64,000 nucleotides of DNA from Rhizodiscina lignyota. Its lineage: Eukaryota > Ascomycota > Dothideomycetes > Aulographales > Rhizodiscinaceae. Where the stretch lies: positions 1,550,001-1,614,000 of the forward strand of contig ML978126.1 in assembly GCA_010015805.1 (NCBI GenBank). The letters run 5' to 3'. A program made the translations under genes and the position numbers. The notes under the pieces are model-generated. The model was not told the DNA's origin, made no database searches, and saw nothing but the letters and a program-made list of their open reading frames with translations. This document shows, one piece after another, positions 39,801 to 64,000 of the stretch. Position 1 is the stretch's first letter; each line of letters begins with the position of its first letter.

Positions 39801-41819
39801 TCAAATCTGATTCACGATCCAAATCATCGCACTAGTCAGCCCGCTCAAAATATAGCAAAATAGACTCAGTGTTCCAAAGACCAGCATCGGAATGCCAGAG
39901 AGTGTGATATGTCCTTCACACTGCGTCAGCATGCACATCTAAATCATCCACATAGACAGCAAACATACCGAAAAATCCTCCACGCCTTGTTATCGTTTCC
40001 CACAGTTCCGTCTTCATAATATCCGGCGCCGTATCATCTTTCCATGGCCCTACGAGTCGAAACTTTGTATTGAAGTTGACGCCCAGCGCCCACACTAGCA
40101 AAACCTTCCAACCATGCTGCGCGACTTCCCAGATGGACGGTGCCGACCCCACATCCAGTGCAAGTTGGTATGCGTACGACTCGTGGTCGACTCCATAATG
40201 TATTCGGGCAGTCGGTGGGGTGTGGAGGCAGTAGTTGTCTTCCGGCTTGAGAGCGTTCGGGAGACGGTGTAGGATAGCGAGCGTCCAGAGTTGGGCCTGG
40301 AATTCGGCGAGGGGTGGGATAGCACCTTTTCTACTATCAGTGACCATGACTAAATCTGAGCTTGTAGACTATGACTTTACCAAAGCTTGGTCTGACGAAG
40401 CCGATGAATCCAACACTGGGGTCATCATCTTTCCACACGGAGCGAATATTCGCCTGTGCTGAAGTAGGGTACGTTTCGTCGAGGAAGGGGAAACGCTGGA
40501 TATAGCCGGTCGCGAAAATTAATACGTCTGGCTTGCACTTGATGTCCCTCATTCTCTGGTACTCTGGCCTTCCGTTATCTTTGAAATGGACAACGCCTTC
40601 TTCATCGATGTACTTGGGCCAAGGAGCGAGGTCAATCTTTCGGTCTCTGGTGTCCGGAAGAGGCACTTGTATGATTCTCGATCGTATTCTTTGAAGCCAG
40701 GTGTAGTTGCGATAAGGGGCGCTGATGTATGGAATTGCCTTGTTTGACTTGTTGAACAAGACTCCAAAACGATTAGTAGAGAGCTTATGACGGACCATTC
40801 GTCACATTTTGAGAACACTCACTCTTTGAAGCATGGTACCGCTCTTTTGGAATTGTTCCAACCCATTGGTCCAGGCCGCCGCTTGTGCCTGACACTAGCC
40901 ACAGAGTGTATTTGATGAAGCGGTCGTAGTATATCCAGAGCAGCGGAGAGTCTCTTAGCCAGCGATGAACGTATGCCGTGTCGAATAAACTAGCTTGAGA
41001 TACATCGACTGGAACATTTAGAGGTTTGTTCGGATCTTCCATTCCGAATATCACCGGGTCTGGGACGCGCTGCATTTCAGTTAGTTCGTTCGAAGCAACA
41101 ATACATGGGGATACTACCTTTGGCGCGCAGAAAAAACCATCGCGATGGCACATCGTAACTGATTTTGTTTGGGATGTGACCGCCATGTAGCTTATGTCCA
41201 TCGCTGTTTCTCCGCTTCCCAGCACCATGATGCATTTGTCAGTTCCAAACTGCGTTTTTGATTTGAACTCAGAAGAATGCATGACGATAGGGACATTTGA
41301 GCTGCCCTCAATGTTCGGTATGTTTGGATCCACGTGGAGGCCTGAGCAGATTGCCACCGCGTCGCATTCGAAGTCGTCACTGGAACCGTCTTTTGAACAA
41401 AATGTGACAATATGACCGCCATTCTGTTTACGCCGGATTGATGTGACTTTTGTGGATAGGCGAATGTGAGGCCAGAGATTGAAGCGCGTGCAGTAGTTCT
41501 CGAGATATTTGCAATACCGCTCTGCTTGAAGAAAATCTGGCTCACCCACATCGCAGCGGAAGTCAGAGAACGTTGTCAATTGCTTTGACGATACAAGCTA
41601 CGCGCGATTAGCTTGCTATTTTGGTTTTGACAGAGCCATGTTGAAGAAATATACCTCAGCGTCTTCATATGTGCGATAACGGAACGTCCCACCGATCAAG
41701 TCTTCCGCTTCAAAAACATGCACTTCAATTGGTTTGATTTGAAATGCCTTCTCAGCAGCAAGTAGGTATTTTAGAGTAGCCAACCCAGAAGGGCCAGCGC
41801 CGAGGATGGCGACTTTCAT
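39801..41819 (-). CDS. Flavin-containing monooxygenase (FMO-like)
   Basis: Six exons on the minus strand: 41819–41655, 41597–41118, 41069–40823, 40761–40381, 40325–39969 and 39913–39801 (1743 nt, 580 aa). N-terminal MKVAILGAGPSGLATLKYL is the FAD Rossmann motif. CIMVLGSGETAMDISYMA is the NADPH-binding GxGxxA-type motif, and LIFATGYIQRFPF is the ATGY block of flavin monooxygenases. Intron 2 (48 nt) and intron 5 keep the frame open when unspliced, so a genomic translation hides them. The last exon restores a hydrophobic C-terminus, LSGIPMLVFGTLSLFCYIL, typical of membrane-associated FMOs. It oxygenates soft nucleophiles or ketones; the substrate is unknown. The P450 locus lies upstream on the same strand. 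Confidence 0.88.
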
Positions 41820-43415
41820 CGTTAAAGCACCCAGTCGTTTAAGGATTCCTTGCTTCAGTCTTCGATCAACAGTTCCAAATCATCTCTCGAATCTGGAATC
41901 TGAGGGCATCCCACTCGAGCGCAGCACGCTGTAGATATTTTAAAGACATTCTACGGATTCTACAAACCCATGGATGGGTCCCTGATAGCTGGCATCAGCC
42001 ACACACAAGCTAATACTGCAGTCTTCCAATGCATTTGCTATCTCCGGCCCACAAACCGAGCTTCGATCATACTATTGACGCCCTAGCGAGAACAGCTACT
42101 TCTGAAATGGACTTGAGGTTCCAGGAAAAGGGTTGTGAGACGGTGTGTAATATGGATTCAGTTTAGTGGCGGCTATGCATAGCAGTCGGCAGTCCGCTAT
42201 GCTGGACTCGTCCGTAGCGGTAATACGGCAACCGCCTTTCCCCGTTCGGCGATAATAAGAGTAATGAGTACATTAGATCCTCAGTTTAGTGATAGGGCTG
42301 GGTCTAGAAGCTACAGTTCTCCGTGTAAGGTTCATTACATGGATACCAGTGCTGAGCGCGGTGGCTGAGAGAGTTTCAAAGATCAACAGAAGGGTATGAA
42401 CAGAGCTGAATATAGCTTGGAGAACGAGTTCCCAAAAACATGCTGATGAATACAAAATTAGAGGTTCCAAATCTCAAGAGTTGATGGGCTGTTAGCAAAT
42501 TTCACAAAGCACCGGAAGGATGGCACGGTTCCAGCCTGCAAATTCTCCTGGATATTGAGGCAGGCAATGGCAAGGCACTATCTCCGATGGCTCTTCGCAC
42601 GCGTTCGGGTTGCGGAAATGCAACGGCCGAATTGCTGAACTAGAATGCTGGTGCTTCGAAACACCATACGATCAAATGGGGGGATGGTAGATGGGTTCTG
42701 GGCCTTGCTCTTTCATTAACAATCATCGGAAGCCGAGCGTGATAGATATCTAATTTCAGTGCAAGACACAGTAGTGCTCGAGCATCGAACTTACGTGAGG
42801 TAAAGAAGCGTGGAGTCCATTCAGTACTGCTATCTCCTGAGCTTCGGATAGAGATCTTACAGCACGATTGGGATTGTCTGTGCATCACATCCTACAACCC
42901 CGGACTCCCGGAGCCCCGCAATGTCACGATTCATGGTGTTTTCCCGACGTGAGAAGGCCATAAGATTCGATCGAGAGAACAAAGACGGCTGATATGGTGC
43001 TGACGATCCACATTATTAGAACTAGAATGTCCCCAGTGTGGAAAAAGCTGCTGACTCAGATGCTTGCGCGTATTGGCAGCCGGTAGTTGGGCAAGTGAAC
43101 GTGTCTCACATATTGCATATATGACTAGTAGTATCGGGAAAGTAACTGAAGATGTTGAGTAACTGAAGACGTTGAGTAGTAAATACATGCATCTCAAATG
43201 ACAAAGGACCGAGCGCACACGGACGGTGATGTTCCGTTTAGGGCCCGCCGCTGATGGGCGCTTCATTCTCCTCACGTGACTTCTTGGCGTTAGTCGCAGT
43301 ACTTTTCTCGTGCGGAGATTCCGGACATCCGTTCAAACCACTTTTGCCTCAGCGACAAAGGATTCTGATCCTTCGCAAGCAAGATGACGCTTGCCTATCT
43401 ATCCTTTTGTAAAGC
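41820..43415. other. Intergenic between FMO and P450
   Basis: About 1.6 kb between two minus-strand genes. No product recognised in any frame. Confidence 0.35.
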
Positions 43416-44897
43416 CTAGTCTTCCTCGATAAGACTGACTGCGCGTCGGCCCCTCGGCTTAAATGCAACTGAGAAAGGCTTCGGCTTGCTTGTCAATTCA
43501 GATGTCATCTCCATGTCGTCCACCTCTTGTCTCACGCCATCCACGTAGGCAGGCTCGATGTCGAAGGCCCACAGCATGCGGGCGATGGCGATGAACAACG
43601 AGTTGACTGCGATGTGCCGACCAGGACATATGCGCCGACCAAATCCCCATGGATGTTGAGGTAATTTTGGATTCTCAAGCCACCGCTCCGGCCTGAAATT
43701 CTGCGGGTCTCCGTAGATCGACACGTCCATGTTTATGGACCAGAGATTTCCGATGACGATTGCTCCCTTGGGAATTCTGTAACCCAGATACTCATCATCC
43801 TCGGCTGCCGCATGTGGCACGCCTGCGGGAGTGATGTGCCGCCAACGCATTATTTCCATGATGAAGGCGTTGACATAGGGCAAGCGCTCCCTGTCTTCGA
43901 AGCCTGGTAGCCTTTGGACCCCAACGACACTATCCAATTCTGCTTGGGCGGCCCTTGTCTTCTCTGGGTGGTTCAGGGCTGCGAGGACGGCCCAATTCAG
44001 TTGTCCCGCGGTTGTCTCGAGCGCGGCGCTTGCGAGGATTCCTAATGAGTATGATAATTCGATTGTGGATAGGTCTTGGGCTTACTTGGATGTTGAAAGC
44101 TTTTGGGCTATGTTTTCCTCTCTGGCCTGAAGACCGTGATCTAGATCTTTCGCGTACAATCTTGACTCCATTTCGTAATATCTCTCCGCTGTTCGCTTCC
44201 ACGGTGCTAGAAATGGTGGAAGATAGTTCAAGATTGGAATGGCATCCACGATCCAATGGCCAACGCGGAGCGCCTTTACCTGGTTGCCAAGGACTTCATA
44301 GTTCTCTACGAAGGACTTGTCGTGGGGGCTTGTCACACGGAATCCATACATAACGGAGTATATCGCACTCGCCGCATACCGCTTGAAAGAAGTATCGAAA
44401 TCACCCGTCAATAGCAGCTCCTTCATAAGCTGCTTGCTCTCGAGATCCTGTTGTGGCCGATATTCCTGCGAAGCGGACTCATTCACCGCGCGGCCGACCA
44501 TCCGTTGGATCAGTCGCAGTTTCGGATCGTACTGGCGGAGTAGTGTATGCATTCCTTTCGTCAAACATTCGCCGGCCATTACAAGGCGTGGCCTGTTGCT
44601 GTAAATGGTACTGCGCTTGTTCAGTACGCCCTCGGCGGCGTCGGGCGTTCCAAGCACGACTATCGTATCCTTTCCAAACTGAACACTGTATATCGGACCA
44701 TACTGTTGAGTCCATCTCGCATACGTGAGGAACGGAAAGTCGATGGGCGCTTGGTGGAGGTTTCCGATAAGTGGAAGCCGGCGAGGCCCAGGAGGGAGTC
44801 GATGATCTCGTCGGCGCTCGTGAAGCCGAACTGCTATTAAGACAATAAGACTGAGCAAGAGGCCAATGGCCAACATCTCTTTCTTCCTCCGTTCCAA
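43416..44897 (-). pseudogene. Cytochrome P450 with one in-frame stop
   Basis: One frame runs from MERRKKEMLAIGLLLSL (44897) to the stop at 43416, with a single TAA at 44084–44082. All P450 landmarks are there: a membrane anchor, LPPGPRRLPLIGNLHQAP, the I-helix AALETTAGQLNW, ExxR in FIMEIMRWR, FRPERWL and the heme loop FGRRICPGRHIA. Around the stop the sequence is STSK-stop-AQDLSTIELSYSLG, where conserved residues lie on both sides. The stop is one C-to-T change from CAA. A GT just after it (GTAAGC) pairs with an AG 44 nt later, but that splice leaves the wrong frame. A weak donor (GTCTTC) about 45 nt upstream would bypass the stop while deleting about 30 residues. Probably a pseudogene. Confidence 0.72.
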
Positions 44898-52461: not shown

Positions 52462-55400
52462 TTAAGATAAAGATGCATTGCATTCGTCCATATTGCTTCG
52501 TTGTCTACAACTCGTATTGCCCAGGTCTGCGAAAATAGGACCCCAAGAAGCGAAGCTGTCCATGCGCCACCATATCGAAGCACTCCAGTCCGCACCTCGC
52601 GGTTTCATTGCGGTTTGATCGTCCATGCCCCAAAGAACTCTGAGCCTAAAGAGGCTTTCGTTTGTGTTTGGGTTTGGCGCTTTTGCCATCTCCGTGTAGT
52701 TCGTGAACGCAGGGAGGTTCTGGGAGGAAATGTGGATGGGTGTGGATGGCTGGTCGATTTGTTCCGGCCGATTGGGAGGATGTCCATTTGCGAAAGCTAA
52801 GGTGGAATTATTTCGTAAGATTACTTCGGCGTGGCTGGAAACCGTCCAGTTCTCATGCACGCTTGTCTTCTGACATTCTCCACAAGACTAAGATAGTCAG
52901 TTAGCAAGAACATCACGAATAGGGCCAGAAATCTTACTGAATGTAACTCATTGAGGAGCTCTGCTCCTCTGGACAGGCGGCCACGGACACCAGCAACTTG
53001 AGTATCAAGATTCGCTGCATCTATCAAAGGCGAGCGGAAGAAAGAGGAAGAGAAGTCGCTCGGCTGTCGATATATGGGCATCGATTCTTCTTGCCTTATC
53101 GTCGAGACCGTGATGATGGCAGCAGCGTGCTCTTCAATCAGTGATTTGTTCTTTGACTGACTATTGTTATGGTCCCAGCAGAGCGACTGGGCCCAGATAA
53201 ATCGTAATTGCAATCGGAAAGCAATCTCAATTGCTTGCCTTAATAGTGGAGATAGAATGCTCATGCTGCACCATTTCTTCAGACGGAGGCGTTGGATCAA
53301 CCACTCGCTGCAAACTTTGCGGCTTCCACCCAATCCAGTCAGATCCTCCAATGCTGCATATTTCGGTGTGACAGGAGGAGGGCCAATCTCTTTCGGGACA
53401 ACGATTCGAACAGCGAAACCGTGGTTGGCATAAGGTCTGAATTCCAAGAGTAAAGGCGGAAAAGTCTCCGTCGAGTAACCGAACAACTTCGTAAAAGGGG
53501 CTCCCATCCATCGTTTGGTACAGGCAACCTCTCCTTTTGGTGGTATTGCAGATTTTATTTTAATATTCCACCAGAAACATAGTACGTCCGAAGGCAACGC
53601 CACCATTGTATCGAAGTCATCCAATGGATGAAAAACAGTTCGATTGTTGGCAGGTGTTCGCGTTCGAAATGCAGCTTTCACCTTCTTTGGAAGCTGACGG
53701 AGAACGCCGAGTCTTGGCATTAGCGGTGGAGGCACTAGATGCATTGCCCTTGAGAGGCCAGAGACCACCTCTGCAGCCGAAGGACGCAAAGTTGCGTCAA
53801 TGTGAACCATGCGTGAGCAAATGTCAAGCAGGCGTTCACTGAGAAGAGCGGGTGCGCCTCGAACCTTTTTGATTTGATCCTTCACGTACTCTGATACAAA
53901 GCCGAATCTGCCTCTAGTGCCTCCAAGAACATTGGAGGTGGACTGTTGGAGTCTGAGGATTCGCCGAAAGTCGAAAATAGAGGAATGTGTCATGACGATG
54001 ATTAGCTCCAGGAAGACACAGCCAAGTGAGTAGATATCAGACTTCTCTGAACGGTGACTTGAGAGAAATACCTCCGGCGCGGCATATGTTGGAGTCAGAG
54101 TGTTCGAGAAGCGCGTTCCGGACTCGATTTGCTCAGTTGTCGAGGTGCCGAAGTCTGCAAACAAGAAATTGGTCTTTGCAATTAATATATTTGCTGGCTT
54201 GATGTCGTTATGGAGGAGGTTGTTGCTGTGGAGATAAAGCAGTCCCGTTGCGAGCACTATCAAACCACGAACGAGCTGATGTAAATTCACGTCAGGATGT
54301 TTCCACGGGCAGGAGGTAATGATCAAGGTCAAAGTCGGCAACGGGCTCCATTAAAAGGCTGAGATTCCATTCAGAAGCGGCGACGATGCGCACACAACTA
54401 GAATGGTCGACTTGCTTCATGATGTCGGCCTCGTGGCGGAACCGGCGCGCAGCATCTTCATCAGAATCCTGCCGATAGTGATATTTACACGCATACTCCT
54501 GCCCCGTTGGACTGTAAACAACCTTTTCAACTTTCGCAAATGTTCCCTTCCCCAGTTGCCCCCGGCTGAGTAACATCGAGTTCCAGCCGTTGAGATGGAA
54601 AACGAGAGCGCCAACAAGGTCGATGTGCTGCGTAAAGGCGACAACTGTTGCCTTACGCTCTCGGCCTGTTGGCGAGCGATGAGAGGATTTCGATGGGGCG
54701 TGCGAATGGGTCGAATGTGTTGGGTTGGATTGGGAGGACAGCTGGGAGTTAGGACTGCCACTTTTCCGTGTGCTATCTTCTTGAACTGAGACTTTCTGCC
54801 CTTGCGGCGCTTCAATCAAATTCTCTTGAGATTGAGTGCATGTACTGGAGCTCTCTTCTGGCCACCTGTGGTTGTACTGGCTAACATCCTTCGTAATCTC
54901 CGGGAATTCGCCGTCAAAATGTTCCTTGAGGTGCCTCATCCTATCCTCGAAAGACTTGAACCGCGTGCCACCCCAGCCGCAGCGCTTCTCAAAGGTTGTC
55001 TGAAAGGAATATGTAGAAGCATCAACAACAATACCAATGGCATCAGTATTGAGGCGATGTGCTCGTGTTCCTAGATGTGACCTAACTTTGTCTCGTCGAA
55101 AACCGACAAACGGCTTCTCTTCCCCGTTGTCGAGACAAAGCTTACACACCCACACTTCTTGTGGTTGGCGAAGGACTTCATGCCGTATCCACAGATCTTT
55201 TCGTGTGAAGGATCGGCCACAGCCGTAGGTGCAGTGGTACGGTTTCGAGGGGTCCACTTCTTCCGGATGAGGGGTTTTGCAATCGTGCTCGCGGGCCTCT
55301 TCATACTTCTGGCGGACGAAGCGCCAAATCCTAGCCTCATAACTGTCATCTTCGTCAGAGAAGCTAATTGGCGCCTGCTGAGCTGGAGCAGGAGGATTAT

Positions 55401-55977
55401 GTGAAGACGGAGCTCGAGGTTGTTCCAAGCCTGAGAATGCAGACGATTTATTTCCAGGACGGAGTAGTAATGAACTGGTAGATGATTCCGCTTCGTTCTG
55501 TCGGTCTAGTTTCGCTTCTGCTGGCGTGTGCAGCTCGTTGTTTCCAAATTCGTCCGACCTCCACAGTTGAACTTCATCAAAAGAGCATCCCAAACTACTT
55601 GCCAGGCCTCTCAGCTGATTCTCAGAAGGTCGTCCATTATACTTCTCCAAAAAAGGTCGTATAACCCGGAGATCCGCCTCATTTATAGAATATTGCTGAT
55701 GAACTCTTTTGGCTGGAGACTTTCTTTCTGCATCTGCTGATGCCCTCGATCGCTTCGTCCCGCCCTCGACAATATTAGGCGCAAATTCCGGTGGAGTCTG
55801 AGAATTTGGCATTCGAAATGTGCCATTTTGACCCTGTTGAAAGAACGGTCGAAAGTCATTTATATTATTCAGGGATTCGATATTTGGGGAGGAAAAGGGG
55901 TCAATCAACAGATTCTGGCTGTAGAAGCCGCTGTCTCTCGACCGCCACGTGGCGTCGGGGTCACCATTATTGGGCAT
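52462..55977 (-). CDS. Homeodomain-like / C2H2 zinc finger / protein kinase fusion, copy A (frame break in kinase domain)
   Basis: Exon 1 starts at 55977 (MPNNGDPDATWRSRDSGFY). Residues about 98–140 (EADLRVIRPFLEKYNGRPS, LASSLGCSFDEVQLW) resemble homeodomain helices. Zinc-finger-type units follow: YHCTYGCGRSFTRKDLWIRHE (about 248–266), VWVCKLC with RRDKVRSHL, and RCGWGGTRFKSFEDRMRHLKE. The kinase domain begins QLGKGTFAKV (about 474), with YACKYH as the beta-3 lysine and ADIMKQVDH after helix C. At about 54310 the frame shifts by one base (LDHYLL to HPDVNLHQLVRGL). It continues with LLHNDIKPANILI, FADFGTS and APEVF. A 49-nt intron (52937–52889) leads to the last exon ending near SIWWRMDSFASWGP. 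Total is about 1150 aa if the frames are joined. A 31-nt GT–AG intron could formally close the gap, but that is too short to be likely. Confidence 0.72.
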
Positions 55978-57299
55978 CTACAAGCAGTCAGTGGTCTGCG
56001 CTCCTCACTATCAGTAAGGGCATTATGGAGTTGGCGTACCAAAGCACTGGTGTGAGCCAACTCATTGTTTTGGTCTTCAGCCTCGTGCATGACTTCAGGC
56101 AACTCGGTGACAGCGAGTCCATTGTCTGCAGGCAAGTCTAGTGATTCGTAGCCCTCCCATAACTCGGGGAGAACGAAGGGCCCGTCGCAGGTCCCCTCCC
56201 CGTTCCCTGAAACTCGACGTCGTTACCCATGGCTTATAACCTCTTGCCTTTGGGGGTCGCACGGCGACATGAGACGATAGTCAGGAGAGAAGAGTTGTCG
56301 TTCCATCGTGGACACGCGGTGCGCGCTCATTTTGCTCGAGTCGAGGGCGAAGGGCGACAGAGCCTCCTCCACCACCCTGCCCAGCTGTGACACCCGGCCA
56401 TCTCCGCCCCTCGTCGTGGTGAGGCGCAATTGGTGGATTGCTGGACGATAAAGGGTCGTATACGAGGAGGCCACACGCTCTATGCGTTGGTTCGGAGCAT
56501 GCTGAAGCCTGGAAAGGATGAAATCAAGACGTTTCACGATGCGGATACGTCAGACGTGAGGATGGGCGGCGGCGGGCCATGGCCTATGGGGATATCCCTG
56601 CGTCGGTGTGGCGTCGACTGGGGAGATGCGGATGGAACAAATGAACCGAAGTTTAACCGGCTGCCAACTTGCTGCGGCAGCAGTATATCAGTCTAACAAG
56701 TCGAGTTACCGCCTGCCCAAATCACAATGCAGCGAAGGCTTTTGGTGCATCAAGCTATTCCGTAATTGTTCTTGCAATTGTAATGTCGAGTTTCATTGCG
56801 ATATAGACCGAAGATATAGACTGAACGGAGTGGTTATCAGAAGGCCGCCGGCATCAAATAGAAAGTAATTCATCAAATCATGATCATATCAAAGAGAAAA
56901 CAGTTCATCATGTCATAAATCGTGAAGCATCCAGTCATGACCCACATCAAACCATGCAAGAACCTAAAGGAAATCATTGACCCCATCATGAGCCTCGTTA
57001 AATCATGCCCACGAATGTCCGAACATCCCCATGCCATAGAACGCAAACTATGCTAGTCCGTAACAATGCATATGCAAAGCCCATAATCATGCATCCAAAG
57101 CGATGCTCGAAGCATCAACCGTCTTTCTTCAGAAGACTCCATGACATGCCATATGCAATATGAGATTTACAGTTGCAAGACAAGAAAAGGTACGGTCGAA
57201 CGGCGTCTCCAAATGAAGATGGCATGCAAATGCTCCAAGCTGTCAAAGAAATTTCGACCAGCAGCGACGACAGTACGGAGTGCTTCATACATCCGCACC
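55978..57299. other. Intergenic between kinase-fusion copies A and B
   Basis: About 1.3 kb. It contains the upstream region of copy A. Between about 56,880 and 57,020 the word ATCATG and near variants recur several times. No gene recognised. Confidence 0.35.
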
Positions 57300-59966
57300 T
57301 TAGCGGCGGAATAGATAACGCTGCCCAAGCCCCAGGGTCGGCTTCGCGATGTGGGCAGCGCTGTTCGTTCGGAAAGTCGGAGAAGGTTGTCGCCCATACA
57401 GCGGCGATGGTAAAGCGCAACAGCAACATTTAGGGAGATCGGAGTGCGGCTTGAGGATACGAGACCTCTCGGGATCAACGTCGACCTTCAGCCTCAAAGT
57501 GTTCTGATTACTGTTGCGAGCAGGTCGGACCAGGCGAACGCTGAGGTTGTTGGAAGAGGTAGAGTCGAACTCCAGCAGAATCGAGGGAAGTGATTGTGTA
57601 GATGAGGGAAGACTGGCCCGAGGCCAGCGACGACTATTAAGGTAAGCGCGCCGGTGTCTCCTGGAGCGCAAGATGAAGGGGGAGTCCAATCTAAAACTTT
57701 TATTGGCACGCTGATCGTACAATGCATTCATCGAGGAAATGTCGTCAAGATCTAGCGGAGACGAACCCAGGCTGGTGCGTTCGGGGTGGTCGCGGTGATG
57801 CAGCAAATCGGAAGTGTGAAAATGTTTCCTTGGTAGAAGCGATGTTGTGATGATGCGCATAATCTGAGTCAGAGACACAGTGACTTCAGCTGTAGTTGCA
57901 CGTTGAACAGGAATTGGATTAAGCATGCAGCAGCAGAAATCTGAGAGTCGTCCCGCACTTAGAGAACTCGTGTCGCCGAGCTTTGCCTTTATAGCCAGCA
58001 GCGTCCGGGTTATGAGCTCTGAACGAAGAACAAAGGCTCTGTTGTTGATGCGGTCGCCCCTAAAGGAACGGACTTTATTCGCATTTCGATGGCGCCGCGT
58101 ACGAATTCGCCTCGGTTTAGGCGACGGCCCACGGAGCATAACCAACGCAAGCTCCAAGAAAATGCACCCCAGAGCACAAATATCGCACTTGGTTGTGAGA
58201 TGCAAAAAGTCGGGGGTATCTGGTGCTGCATACATTGATGGCGATGGGCCAGACGTGGTAGTGTTATCGAGGCCGATGTACATTAAGTCCGTTTCATGAA
58301 TGAGGGTGTCAGCAGCTTGAACGTCGTTTTGGACCATATTGAGGTTGTGAAGATATGCAAGACCGCTGGCGATAGCAATGAGTGCGCGGATAAGTTGGCC
58401 GGGCCGAACATTGGGGTAGATGTCGTTCAGGAGTTGTATAATACTAGCATCCATGTTGAAAGGCCGGAGCTTTGTTGTTTGTCGGTGTAAGATCGACTTC
58501 CCAGCATGCATCGACAGGGCCCGTTGATGCGCGACATTTTCTACGCGAGCCGGTGTACCGTACCACAAAGCCTCCATGCTTCTCCATATTTCAGCCGAGA
58601 AGCGCAAGTGCGCCGCAAGACGCAGAAGGAAATCCATCTGAGAAGAGAGCGAATTATAAGTCAGACTAGCCATTCTCTGGTCGACAGTGTTGCTGCCCGG
58701 GCTAGCAGTGATCGAGTTGTTGTGATCGTTCAAGCTTGCGCCAATGTGTCTGCGCGGGCGGCGTCTTGTCCGAGGGGAATATGCATTTTGACGAGGATCA
58801 GAAGCGGTGGCCTGGTGGCCTGGCTTCTTTTTCCCAGCGATTCGATTGCGAGGCTCATAGTTATCAGGCCAGTTGCGACTGTATTGTGCGACATTGATTG
58901 CAGGATAGATGCAGTTGGAGTAATGTTCGAAACGCTTCGAACGGTTCACGAAAGACCTGAACCTGTAGCCACCCTGCCAGCGATGCGACCCAACGGTAAG
59001 CAGGTTTGGGTTGCATTGGGAGAGTGAACCAGTGAAAGCGACATCGAGGTCTTCTTCTTGCAACAAGTGAGCTCTGACTTTCAGGTAATGTTTCGTCTTG
59101 TCTCTTTTGAATGCGATAGGGGGGTCGGATCTCTCGTTCCTTCGGCGGGCAGGGTAAACCCAGATCTGTCGGGGCTGCCGCAGCGTCTTATGCCTTTCCG
59201 AGTTGTCCCTCTTCATCAAGGAGGAACCACTATTCCACATACATGGATGGGTAGTGCCACGCCGGCCATCCTCAGCTGAGTGTGAGCCACTATGGGGTTG
59301 CTGCGCAGGCTGCCGTACAAGCTGTATGGGCGTGAGTCTTGAAATTGGAAACTTGGTCGCTGGGCTCGGTAGGGCCTGCAATGCTCTGGTAGCTCGGTGC
59401 ATGGTAAAGTGGCGGTGAGTGAGAGACCGGTGAGGAATGGATGCCGCTCTGAGACTTTGATTCGCGTTGTCGATTACATCGTTGCCCGAGGGAGAATAAA
59501 TCGGTCGCTCAGCATGAAATGCGCGTCTGAAATCCTCACTCAAAGTCAGACTTCTATCTCCAGAGCAAAATGAGAGTCTCTGGTCCTGAAGGCCAACTTT
59601 GTTCGGGTATCTTTCCATCCAACCGCGCTCACGGGCGACATTCTCCTCTAATAGCTGAGCGCATGTTGCTTGAATAGGATTCTCTTAGTTTGTGGTTCAA
59701 CACTCCCAGGCTCATCCTGGAGCCTCATCACTCTTTCCACTTCGTTGTCTTTTCGTCCCACATGTGAAGCGCCTATGGCAGGCGGCCCCTGAACAGGCAT
59801 CAACGGGCTGGGAACATGTTGAGGGTCCAACTGCAGGGAGAGGTTGAATGTGGTAGGGAGAGTCAGACCTGTCAGGTACGGTCGGAGAATATGTGTGGCT
59901 GGAATGTAGAATGCTCATGACTGCAATAGCCGCTATCGTCATTCCACGTGTCGTGGGTACAGGCCG
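57300..59966 (-). pseudogene. Homeodomain-like / zinc finger / kinase fusion, copy B, degenerate (772 codons still open)
   Basis: A paralog of copy A in the same orientation. A 772-codon frame (59618–57300) is uninterrupted, yet every key residue is lost. HNDIKPANIL of copy A is QNDVQAADTL, DFG is LDN, and the glycine loop and lysine region is WYGTPARVENV with about 25 residues missing where helix C belongs. The fingers are also broken: CTYGCGRSF is CMWNSGSSL, and WVCKLC is WVYPAR. The flanking blocks LRQPRQIW, GGYRFRSFVNR and LIRALIAIASGLAYLH prove the relationship. Upstream to about 59966 the copy A N-terminus is recognisable in several frames (TWNDDSGYCSHE; CGTKRQRSGKSDE) with stops between them. 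A dead kinase, possibly an expressed pseudokinase fragment. Confidence 0.72.
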
Positions 59967-61287
59967 CGGAGGCTTGATTAATTGTATTGGTCGCCTATTT
60001 CCTTTTAGCATCAATAAGAGTCGCACATGTAGACATGACATACTAGGATAGCTGCATCAATATGCATCCTGCGCTCGACAACGGCGACGCGGTAAGCTCT
60101 GGCTGGAACGTGTCTGGAACAAGCCTGGAAAGGCGGGAGCCCTTCAGGTGACTGGTCGAATAATCCCTCTCTATGGAGTTTCTCTATCCCAAGCCCAATA
60201 ACGTCCAAGACGAGCTATGAACTGAGCGGCTACAGCCCCATTGCGCCATACGGATTCAGCAATATTGATGCTATTCGGGATCGGCTCGGGGGAGACAGGT
60301 CATCGATCCCAAGGCCCCTGTAGGCAACTGCTGCATCGAACCATCATGAAGGGCCAGCAGCACAGGGAGGATGTTCTTCATCCGCGCTTTCCGCCCTTCG
60401 CACAGGGTAACTCAGGGCGGAGGGTGAGTCGTGGGATGCCATCATTGGCTGGCGCGATTCACAGAACGGTTTCTTTGGGTGGACAACGGAGTTCAAGAGA
60501 GTGGGGGTTCCTGCACGTTGGCATGCGTGGAAGCAATCGAAGACGGCCAGCTCGAGAGACAAGCAATTGTAGCCAAATGTCGTGGCGATGCATTTGGATG
60601 GGCATGTGAAGGAGTTGGAGGTTGATGTGGAGTTCCCCAAGGGGATTTTCGGCACCCCCACCCGACGATTTTCCGCCCGTCCTTTTCTGACTCCCACTCC
60701 CGATTTTATCACTCAAATGAGTGATTTAATTACGAGGACATGGTTGCAGTCATCTCTTCTCCTAGAACTGATCTTTATCGTGAGAGCAACCATGCTTCAA
60801 CATGCCTAGGTCTGCACAGAGTTACTGCGTCCTGTGGATCTATCTGTTACCGTCGAGTCTCCGAAGCTGGAGAATCTACATTTTAGGCTCTAAGATCCTA
60901 TTACAAGAATAACTCCGCATAATAGCTCTTCACAGAGAGAAGCGCTATTTGCGATGCAGAAACTAACAAACTATTGGCATGCGGTGTACACTATTAGAGT
61001 ATTGCTATGAGATGTACAGTCTCCAACCTCCTCGTGAATCGCTCAACTCGTCCCACTTTGACTTGATATATAACGACGAGCCTTGAATTGCGTAATCTTT
61101 GTGTGTGATGATAGAAAGACGCTACAGATAACAACAGCTATTCCCTACTAAGCAGCCTGTATCAGCCCCTCCATAATCGGAATGAAGATAACTCATGGTA
61201 TGGAATCGAGCCCATAGAAGTGCTATCATTCACCACACAAGACGCGAACAATGCCTCCGCTTCATTATTCAAAACTCATAACTCGTA
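59967..61287. other. Intergenic between copies B and C
   Basis: About 1.3 kb. No gene recognised; short opposing frames only. The stretch from 60,800 to 61,200 is AT-rich. Confidence 0.35.
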
Positions 61288-64000
61288 TCATATCCTAAAC
61301 TTCTTGAAATATGGAGCCCACGACGCCGCACTGTCAATATGCCACCAAGAAAATTTGGTACCGTGTGAGCAAATGTCCTCCTCATTCCCGGTCCATGTTC
61401 CCAATCCAATGTAGGCCCTCAACAAGTCCGGGCCATTCCTATTCAATATAAGTCCTTCAATATCATTAAAGACGTATGGTGCCTGCGGAGATGACCTGCT
61501 CCGGTCATGCGAGCTGGTTGGCGATAAAACATCTCCAGCCGATTCTGCTGAAACTTGCGAGACAGATGGCATCGATGTTTGCGATTTAGCACAGTTCTCT
61601 GGTTGCTGCCATGAAGATTCGTTGGATCGAAGGAAGGACTTGGCTTCAACAACATCTGATGCCAATGTCTCCTGCGATGTTGATTGTATGGGAGACCATG
61701 ATGCACTCCCAGGAGCCTAGATACGAGTAAGCGTTTGAAAAAGATAAGATGAACTTATCAACCATACCAGGATCTGCTCAGCAAAGCTGTTCTCCGATTC
61801 CGGTATCGCCCGCATTTCACTTATTCTTTCGAGGGCAATAGACAGCTTGTGAGTTAATTCAGAAGATAAATGTTCGCCTGGTTTCGCCAGGCGATATGTC
61901 GATCTTCGAAAAAAGTAAGCTTGGTTTTCAGACACTGGAGCGACGGTGGAAGCGATAATGATGGCAAAAGCCGTAGAACAGATCAGCGCGGTGTCCTCAT
62001 GCTCAGCTGAGCAGATCTCCTTTACCCAGAGGAAGTTGACATGAAGCTGGACCGTGATGGCGATTGCATGTTGCATAGAGAGCCCCAAGCTTGAAGGCTC
62101 AAGCCAAGTTCCTGATGCCAAACTTCTCGCATCTTCGACTGTATCAGGAGATATCCTCAGCCAGCTGTGGTCAGTGAACACCGCATACTTCGTGTCCCAA
62201 TGCCCAGGACCAAAAGATGAAGTTTCCACGAGGGAAATCCGGTGGACCTTGCCCTTAACAGTGCTGATCTCGAGAAGCTTGGAGGGTAGCCCGCTATGGT
62301 CTACTGATTGATGTGAAGAGCTTTTGGTTACGGCAAAGTCAGGGGACGACAAAGCAGGTGGCGGAAAAGCGATTCCCCAGCGCAGAAGAAGGTCACTCGC
62401 ACGCCACGATTGCCTCTTTCCGAGTTCTTGAGGTGATATATTCGGAACAGTTGTCTTTTTCCATCCCGTGCAGTCTTCACTGAAGTGCAGCGTTGCCCAA
62501 TTTAGGGATAAAGAGCGAGGGATGAAGTTTAGCAGTCGATCAAATCCGACTGCAATTTGGAGAGCAGTGGGGCGTGCAGAAGGAAGAGGATTGAGCATAG
62601 CGGCCGCAAGTACCCAGAGGCCCTCGAAGAGGGAATCGCATTGATCATTGGCGGCTCGCTCGAGTTGTCGGTTTAAATACCGTGCCGTTGCAGATAAACG
62701 ACGTCTCGTAAATTGATGTCCATTCTGACTGAAAACTCTGGAGACAAGATGTTCGCGGAGCAATTGGACTGAGCCTTGAGTGAGAATCACAAGGACCTCA
62801 GCAAAAACCGCACCAAGCGAGAAGATGTCGCTTTTCATTGTATGTATAGAGGATGAGAGAGCCTCTGGCGCAGAGAACATCTGCGGCATGTCTGATGCAG
62901 AAATCTTGATCGGCCGCGTAGCCATCTTCGTGGTCAAAGAATTACGCTCCGTGGTTGAACTTCCGAAGTCCGCGTACAAAAACTTCGTGCGAGCAATGAG
63001 AATATTGTCCGGTCGGATGTCGTTATGAAGGATTCTCTTCTGGTGAAGGTAGACCAATCCATCCACGAGTGCAATAAGACCAGCAAGGAGCTCGTGGCGC
63101 TGCACACTGCTGTAGTGTTTCGGGTCGAGAAGGTATCGCTCCAGATCAAAGTCGGCCACGGGCTCCATGAGCAGGGTTGGTCGCGGGCCTTGTGACAGCC
63201 CTGCCACAAATCGAACGCAGCTGGGATGGTTAATGAGTTGCAGAATCTCGATCTCACGTTGGAAATGCGCCAAGTCGACACCAGTCGCCCCTGGCTCCCG
63301 AAGAAGTTTCTGGGCGTAAGAAAAGCCTGTCGGGCCGTGTCGAATTTCCTCTACCCACGTGAAGGTGCCGCAACCAAGAGTCTGCACATTTTCAAAGCTG
63401 TCGCTCTGCTCCGAAAATGGAAGCACAAGAGCTCCAAGCAAATCAATGCGTTGTGCGAATGTAAATCTGGCTGCGTTATGAATAGCTCGGTGGGGTGCAC
63501 CAGAGCCTGATGTCGACGTTGCATCATTCATGAAATAAGCCGGCGAACTAGAAATAGAAGACGGAGAGAGCGCGCTAGAAGGACGCGTTATTGTCGTGCA
63601 GTTCCCAACAGCTGCAGGGACGGTGGCAGTATTGCTCACGGATGCCTTTCGCACTTTGCAACTATCCGGGTCTTGTTCAGGCCAGTCTCTAATATAGCGG
63701 GTTCCGTTGCGACTTTCATAGTAGTCGTGAAAGTGATCATGGAGATGGTTCAGTCTGTCTTTCCAGCTTTTGAATTTGTATCCCCCGAATCCACAGCGGG
63801 GCTCGAACAGTCGAGCGTTGACAGGCCTCGAGAAAAATGACTGCTCCACCAGTTTTTCTGTACTTTCTCTTCCTTGTGCATGGACTTGCGCCCTGACTAA
63901 ATGGTCTCTCATTTTGTCCTTTCTCAGAAACAACTTCGGGTCTTTTCTGCCCTCCCTTCGACACAGAATGCAAAGGTACACAGCTTGAGGTTGGCGCATC
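61288..64000 (-). CDS. Zinc finger / protein kinase fusion, copy C (5' end outside window)
   Basis: Partial: the gene enters from the right edge at MRQPQAVYLCILC, which aligns with the finger region of copy A. Two exons are visible, 64000–61768 and 61716–61288, with a 51-nt intron GTATGG...GTATCTAG. The finger CGFGGYKFKSWKDRLNHLHDHF is intact. The kinase domain has LGCGTFTWVEEI as glycine loop, YAQKLL as the beta-3 lysine, MEPVADFDLERYLL as the hinge, RILHNDIRPDNILI as the catalytic loop (HND rather than HRD, aspartate kept), LYADFGSS as the metal site and SAPEAL for APE. Nothing obvious blocks activity. The last exon ends SWWHIDSAASWAPYFKK, matching the tail of copy A. Substrate and targets unknown. 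Confidence 0.82.

Follow-up and report, generated by a model that had tools for sequence, protein, structure and literature searches.

HET domains are described as triggers of cell death and as remote relatives of TIR domains (PMC10197012, PMC12881547, PMC10890737, PMC4986451, PMC9815663). They are said to rank with the most frequent and most variable domains found in filamentous fungi, the mechanism by which they kill being given as unknown, and one class of HET proteins, including TOL and PIN-C of N. crassa, carries a PSWSW C-terminus (PMC10890737). Fungal NLRs are reported to include a kinase among their N-terminal domains (PMC4986451, PMC9815663). Proteins that join a homeobox to C2H2 fingers are also already known (PMC2779367, PMC11508405), and in Talaromyces marneffei two of the seven homeobox proteins described are of this type (PMC11508405). 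Here we analysed a window of 64,000 nucleotides from Rhizodiscina lignyota (contig ML978126.1, positions 1,550,001 to 1,614,000; G000:C6:1550001-1614000), in which three paralogous genes, A, B and C, stand in tandem, all on the minus strand. The assembly comprises 33.4 Mb in 29 contigs, and our genome searches cover this one genome. Copy C is predicted to hold, on one chain, fingers derived from homeobox-C2H2 proteins, a protein kinase domain with its catalytic residues and a segment derived from a HET domain.

The initial annotation of this DNA had recognised three same-strand paralogs, and all three were found again, with copy C extending beyond the window. It had missed the segment between the kinase and the last exon, the cutting of copy C by the window end and a frame break in copy A. 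The features are as follows, in window numbering.

52462..55977, minus strand: copy A, between the ATG at the head of its first long frame and the stop codon of its last exon; there may be another exon 5' of this
54295-55977, 52824-54350 and 52465-52887, minus strand: frames of copy A
54865..55239, minus strand: finger block of copy A (Pfam zf-C2H2 19.2 bits, below the cut-off of 25.2)
54313..54561, minus strand: first part of the copy A kinase, in the finger frame (PF00069, 36.5 bits)
53763..54254, minus strand: second part of the copy A kinase, in the other frame (PF00069, 87.2 bits), with the break between both parts
53097..53453, minus strand: HET-derived segment of copy A (Pfam HET 13.9 bits, below the cut-off of 22.5)
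52888..52937, minus strand: intron of copy A, 50 bases, GT-AG, modelled by eye
52462..52887, minus strand: last exon of copy A, with WWRMDSFASW at 52543-52572
57300..59684, minus strand: copy B, an open frame of 794 codons from stop to stop
61288..64000, minus strand: in-window part of copy C, whose model continues past the window end to an ATG at 65078
64813-64862, minus strand: intron 1 of copy C, 50 bases, beyond the window
63685..64000, minus strand: in-window part of the finger block of copy C, which starts at 64065, beyond the window
62554..63396, minus strand: kinase of copy C (PF00069, 104.1 bits), with all usual catalytic motifs, HND replacing HRD
61942..62280, minus strand: HET-derived segment of copy C, from profile comparison; no Pfam match
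61717..61767, minus strand: intron 2 of copy C, 51 bases, GT-AG, modelled by eye
61288..61716, minus strand: last exon of copy C, with WWHIDSAASW at 61318-61347

The open frame of copy C spans 1,031 codons between two stops and crosses the window end. With the neighbouring sequence of the same contig a model of three exons (72, 1,015 and 142 codons; 1,229 in total) was built by eye from the DNA, without complementary DNA (cDNA). The finger modules, the complete kinase and the long tail all lie within the single exon of 1,015 codons, so the claim that a kinase and transcription-factor-derived fingers share one chain was borne out at the DNA level, and the fusion is real at that level. Copy A shows two long frames (561 and 509 codons), which overlap near 54.3 kb; the longer one carries the fingers together with the N-lobe of the kinase. 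The break near 54.3 kb falls within the kinase, where copy C stays continuous; it may be a recent mutation, the copy being newly broken, or a sequencing error. Copy B is a single frame, collinear with A and C. Between A and C the fingers and kinase are the most alike (37-41% identity, against 21-29% elsewhere).

A kinase domain had been assigned to all three copies. This assignment holds for copy C and for both frames of copy A, which exceed the Pfam cut-off for PF00069 (31.7 bits) with the scores given above, but not for copy B, which reached 21.2 bits. Copy C has kept LGCGTF, the Lys of YAQK, REIEIL, HNDIRPDN, ADFG, APE and KSDIFSLG, and the equivalent residues are retained in copy A by eye. 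In copy B the N-lobe has a gap of about 37 columns and DFG is gone, while the Asp of the catalytic loop is retained. With HND instead of HRD the copy C kinase is a 'non-RD' kinase. Non-RD kinases are frequent in innate immunity. The fungal protein kinase family PF17667 matched copy C with 19.3 bits, below its cut-off of 24.1, and A and B were without a match to it at E<=1. Outside the cluster, the kinase of the same genome that best matches copy C, at C4:1181491, is only 30% identical (E 1e-13). This gene adjoins another, L048:1798-3714 on the plus strand (G000:C4:1182797-1184713), which joins a HeLo domain (108.3 bits) to a degenerate kinase scoring 28.8 bits against a cut-off of 31.7.

Next the segment that follows the kinase was compared with the HET proteins of the same genome, in which at least 151 HET matches were found (217 candidates, 150 scored). 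When each tail was searched against the genome at E<=10, copy A matched three places outside the cluster and copy C five (E 0.003-0.25). All eight of these matches overlap HET loci on the same strand, six distinct loci in all, although by our own arithmetic the HET matches listed span only about 0.2% of the genome. In contrast, the first frame of copy A found three non-cluster places at E<=1, none of them in the HET list, and copy B found one at E<=10, which aligns with its kinase part. The tails of A and C together scored 42.6 against the best 30 of the 151 HET matches (P 5.8e-6), compared to 25.1 for the best of 200 column shuffles and 13.2 for the reversed sequence. Taken singly the tails scored 38.4 (A) and 25.6 (C) against the same set, the latter being near the shuffle ceiling.

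The comparison was repeated with HET profile sets made from 33 of 36 loci, the other 3 having been removed by a motif filter. Against 12 HET proteins with an R(L/I/V)(L/I/V)(E/D)V strand the whole tails gave P 6.3e-9, with a score of 61.4 against 22.1 for the best of 300 shuffles; five of these 12 had been found through the tails. Against 27 HET proteins not found through the tails P was 6.4e-6. The HET-like segment alone gave P 3.7e-10 with the 12 and 3.3e-6 with the 27. The HET-like segment scored 40.8-65.1 against three profiles, while none of six other segments from these proteins exceeded 20.2 against any of them. In the class of HET proteins that is matched, an (R/K)L(L/I)(D/E)V strand precedes YxxLSxxWG. 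The signature of HET proteins in this genome consists of the blocks YxxLSxxWG, W(I/V)DxxC and R(A/G)WxxQE. Block 1 of the tails has kept the Y and lost LSxxWG, block 2 has kept the W and C and lost the Asp, and block 3 was recognised neither in the tails nor in the spliced last exon. Judged by these profile scores, the segment after the kinase in A and C is a diverged HET homologue beyond chance. As the signature is worn, we name it a HET-derived segment and not a HET domain. The copy B tail is linked to HET only by way of A and C, with 0 of 150 shuffles as good.

Based on this combination we tentatively regard the trio as tandem members of one family of signalling proteins with several domains, of the kind that acts in fungal immunity or regulated cell death; this reading is possible and still somewhat short of even chances. 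The ties of HET domains to cell death and TIR, together with the presence of kinases on fungal NLRs, lead us to favour, with moderate confidence, a signalling kinase of the immune type rather than one that simply acts at chromatin. In the preferred reading the basic patches and worn fingers would serve for nuclear placement or for docking on a partner, as a sensor or bait, and the kinase would be the output of the protein. The HET-derived segment would form a contact surface toward HET-type proteins, not a killer by itself, and copy B may serve as a pseudokinase partner. A chain that links a HET-derived segment, a kinase and a transcription-factor-derived module would be a candidate for a place upstream or downstream of HET signalling.

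Several observations weigh against such a role. With the Pfam model of HET (PF06985, cut-off 22.5 bits) copy A remained below the cut-off, and neither B nor C gave a match. The copy C tail alone was only weakly similar to the HET proteins not found through the tails (score 27.0, P 0.0012), and the genome matches of the tails are individually weak (E 0.003-0.25). Against the HET class profile the copy B tail gave no match, 7 of 150 shuffles being as good. A role in cell death may have disappeared together with most of the signature residues. Copy A has its frame break, and one genome was examined. For expression, activity and localisation of the trio proteins the role is a predicted one. Finally, most HET genes are, in the account cited, not known as allorecognition genes, and a small part of them are (PMC10197012). 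An aside of the initial annotation had likened the family to those for non-self recognition. It came closer to the result in that the tail is, by the comparison above, a diverged HET; as few HET genes are known in allorecognition, we do not call the trio non-self genes.

Among the alternatives, the trio may be a by-product of fast turnover, in which a chance fusion was duplicated and its copies diverged with little or no function, C being the last intact one. We consider this unlikely, but less so than the other explanations below. The frame break in A, the worn HET signature in A and C, the low identity between the copies and the losses in B, which concern both finger ligands and kinase residues, are all in line with it. 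However, the kinase motifs are retained in A and C despite identities there of 37-41%, and copy B behaves unlike drifting DNA. Its identity to the paralogs is 22-31%, and its 794 codons are free of stops. In a drift simulation of 794 codons of copy C (substitutions only, a simple model) one of 60 runs was stop-free at 90% amino-acid identity and none of 60 at each of 80%, 70%, 60%, 50%, 40% and 30%, the mean being 8.7 stops at 80%. In 300 Markov sequences generated from the B region the longest open run reached 249 codons. Copy B was therefore probably kept open during most of its divergence, and on this evidence the term diverged pseudokinase gene suits it better than decayed copy. The suggestion that decay differs by copy needs qualifying for B, whose open frame is unlike unconstrained drift. 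RIP (repeat-induced point mutation) was considered as the source of the changes in copy B and rejected, the indices of 0.60 and 1.32 resembling those of the window (0.65 and 1.30).

In a second alternative the protein is a chromatin-bound kinase, with a homeodomain and fingers that bind DNA and a kinase that phosphorylates factors there, and the HET-derived tail is incidental. The C2H2 fingers reported initially are homologous to the finger blocks of homeobox-C2H2 proteins in A and C, but they are degenerate. In both copies finger 1 is without the second His, finger 2 is complete and finger 3 is without the second Cys; in copy B most ligands are lost. The finger blocks were compared with three relatives in the genome (L011, L015 and L016), giving P 5.2e-13 for A and 2.4e-14 for C, with 0 of 150 shuffles as good in each case. 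By this comparison the finger blocks of A and C descend from homeobox-C2H2-type proteins. The copy B finger block alone did not match the same relatives (41 of 150 shuffles as good); it matches those of A and C. The homeobox KN model exceeded its Pfam cut-off in L011 and L016 and not in L015, and no kinase or HET match was found by Pfam at E<=1 in the scanned frames of the three. L015, which is kinase-free, is also without the second His in finger 1, so that loss alone does not rule out function.

The homeodomain that had been placed in copy A could not be recovered. Neither A nor C gave a Pfam homeodomain match at E<=1. A homeodomain remnant was rejected after comparison with the homeodomain regions of the three relatives, as 16 of 150 shuffles were as good for A and 10 of 150 for C. 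By eye, the fingers are preceded by basic patches, RKRKKK in copy C and KRSR...KSPAKR in copy A. The clear homeobox-C2H2 origin of the finger block, the complete finger 2 in A and C, the basic patches as potential nuclear signals (by eye) and the intact kinase residues of copy C speak for a kinase at chromatin. With no detectable homeodomain, and with ligands lost from fingers 1 and 3 and most heavily in B, the proposal of a kinase acting at bound DNA is not well supported, and we consider it improbable, even with the finger 1 loss being shared by L015.

It is more improbable still that the HET likeness of the tail is due to chance or a generic alpha/beta pattern, which would leave a finger-kinase fusion with an unknown tail. 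The Pfam HET scores under the cut-off would fit this. So would the outcome of structure prediction: an AlphaFold2 model of the copy C kinase and tail with A and B (3 sequences) had a mean pLDDT of 36.2 and was discarded. Compared with solved structures, the copy C kinase and tail matched generic kinases in the kinase part only, among the best 60 of 2,099 rows, and a HET protein of this genome (L053) found no relative, its only row up to E 1 being a lymphocyte receptor (E 0.42). The last exon, too, shows no tie to the PSWSW segment found in HET proteins of the TOL class. Against chance stand the eight of eight non-cluster matches at HET loci on the matching strand, and the segment, shuffle and reversed controls, which were negative. 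That two adjacent genes were read as one is very improbable, for although the model of copy C was drawn from DNA, its fingers, kinase and tail share one exon and both other copies run collinear with it.

Returning to the immune-type reading, a more specific form of it would see the trio as a non-NLR immune receptor, with a worn transcription-factor bait, an active kinase, a HET/TIR-derived contact domain and copy B as pseudokinase partner, by a loose analogy with animal necroptosis, where a kinase and a pseudokinase act as a pair. We regard this form as speculative and doubtful.

In comparison to PSWSW-class HET proteins, the tail of the trio aligns with the HET core including the preceding (R/K)L(L/I)(D/E)V strand, and PSWSW or PSWSF lies downstream in the six HET loci to which the tails led. 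The trio differs in having lost most of the signature, in having no PSWSW in the last exon and in the position of the segment behind fingers and kinase. Homeobox-C2H2 transcription factors share the homologous finger block, but the trio has no detected homeodomain, misses ligands and has the kinase and HET-derived segment added. In fungal NLRs kinase and HET both serve as effector domains according to the cited accounts (PMC4986451, PMC9815663). Here they are on one chain, the HET part as a derived segment, and Pfam matched no NACHT or NB-ARC core in any of the three copies at E<=1; nor did it find repeats in A or C at that threshold. The HeLo-kinase-like gene of the same genome resembles the trio in fusing a kinase-type domain to a fungal cell-death domain; its HeLo is N-terminal, its kinase part is below the cut-off and no fingers were found in it.

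Proteins with a finger-kinase-HET or HET-kinase order were not recognised in the passages of literature searched, which did not cover annotated fungal proteomes, so the evidence for novelty is weak. No relatives of the trio were confirmed in viral contigs or in bacterial or archaeal genomes, as expected for a fungal gene. The order of fingers, kinase and HET-derived segment thus appears to be new on weak evidence, while kinase or HET on NLRs is already known. Proteins that would be annotated simply as kinases can contain HET-derived segments that have diverged beyond the reach of the standard model.

The conserved C-terminal exon had been described for all three copies. In A and C the last exon holds WWxxDSxASW and is preceded by a phase-0 GT-AG intron; in copy A this exon has 141 codons and the intron before it lies at the same protein position as intron 2 of copy C. 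Translation of 56401-57500 in the three minus-strand frames showed no such motif for B. Pairwise, the last exons of A and C match over 17 residues (53%, E 0.001). The exon is private, as had been proposed: genome searches at E<=10 with the exon of A or C each found only itself and not even the other. An origin from the PSWSW segment that marks HET proteins of the TOL class was rejected (10.9 against a shuffle median of 9.5; 21 regions, 200 shuffles).

Among the finger relatives, L015 (G000:C9:453269-455878) has two HET loci about 2 and 4 kb away, at C9:457668-458111 and C9:459817-460398. L011 (L011:4091-6619, plus strand, G000:C9) is a homeobox KN-C2H2 protein which, near its C-terminus, scores 22.8 bits (cut-off 22.2) with a DNA-binding model of the Tc5-transposase type. 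The trio itself is flanked on one side by a flavin monooxygenase-like frame and two cytochrome P450 frames (window 40788-44897, minus strand), and on the other side by an MFS transporter (L009:5425-6225, plus strand).

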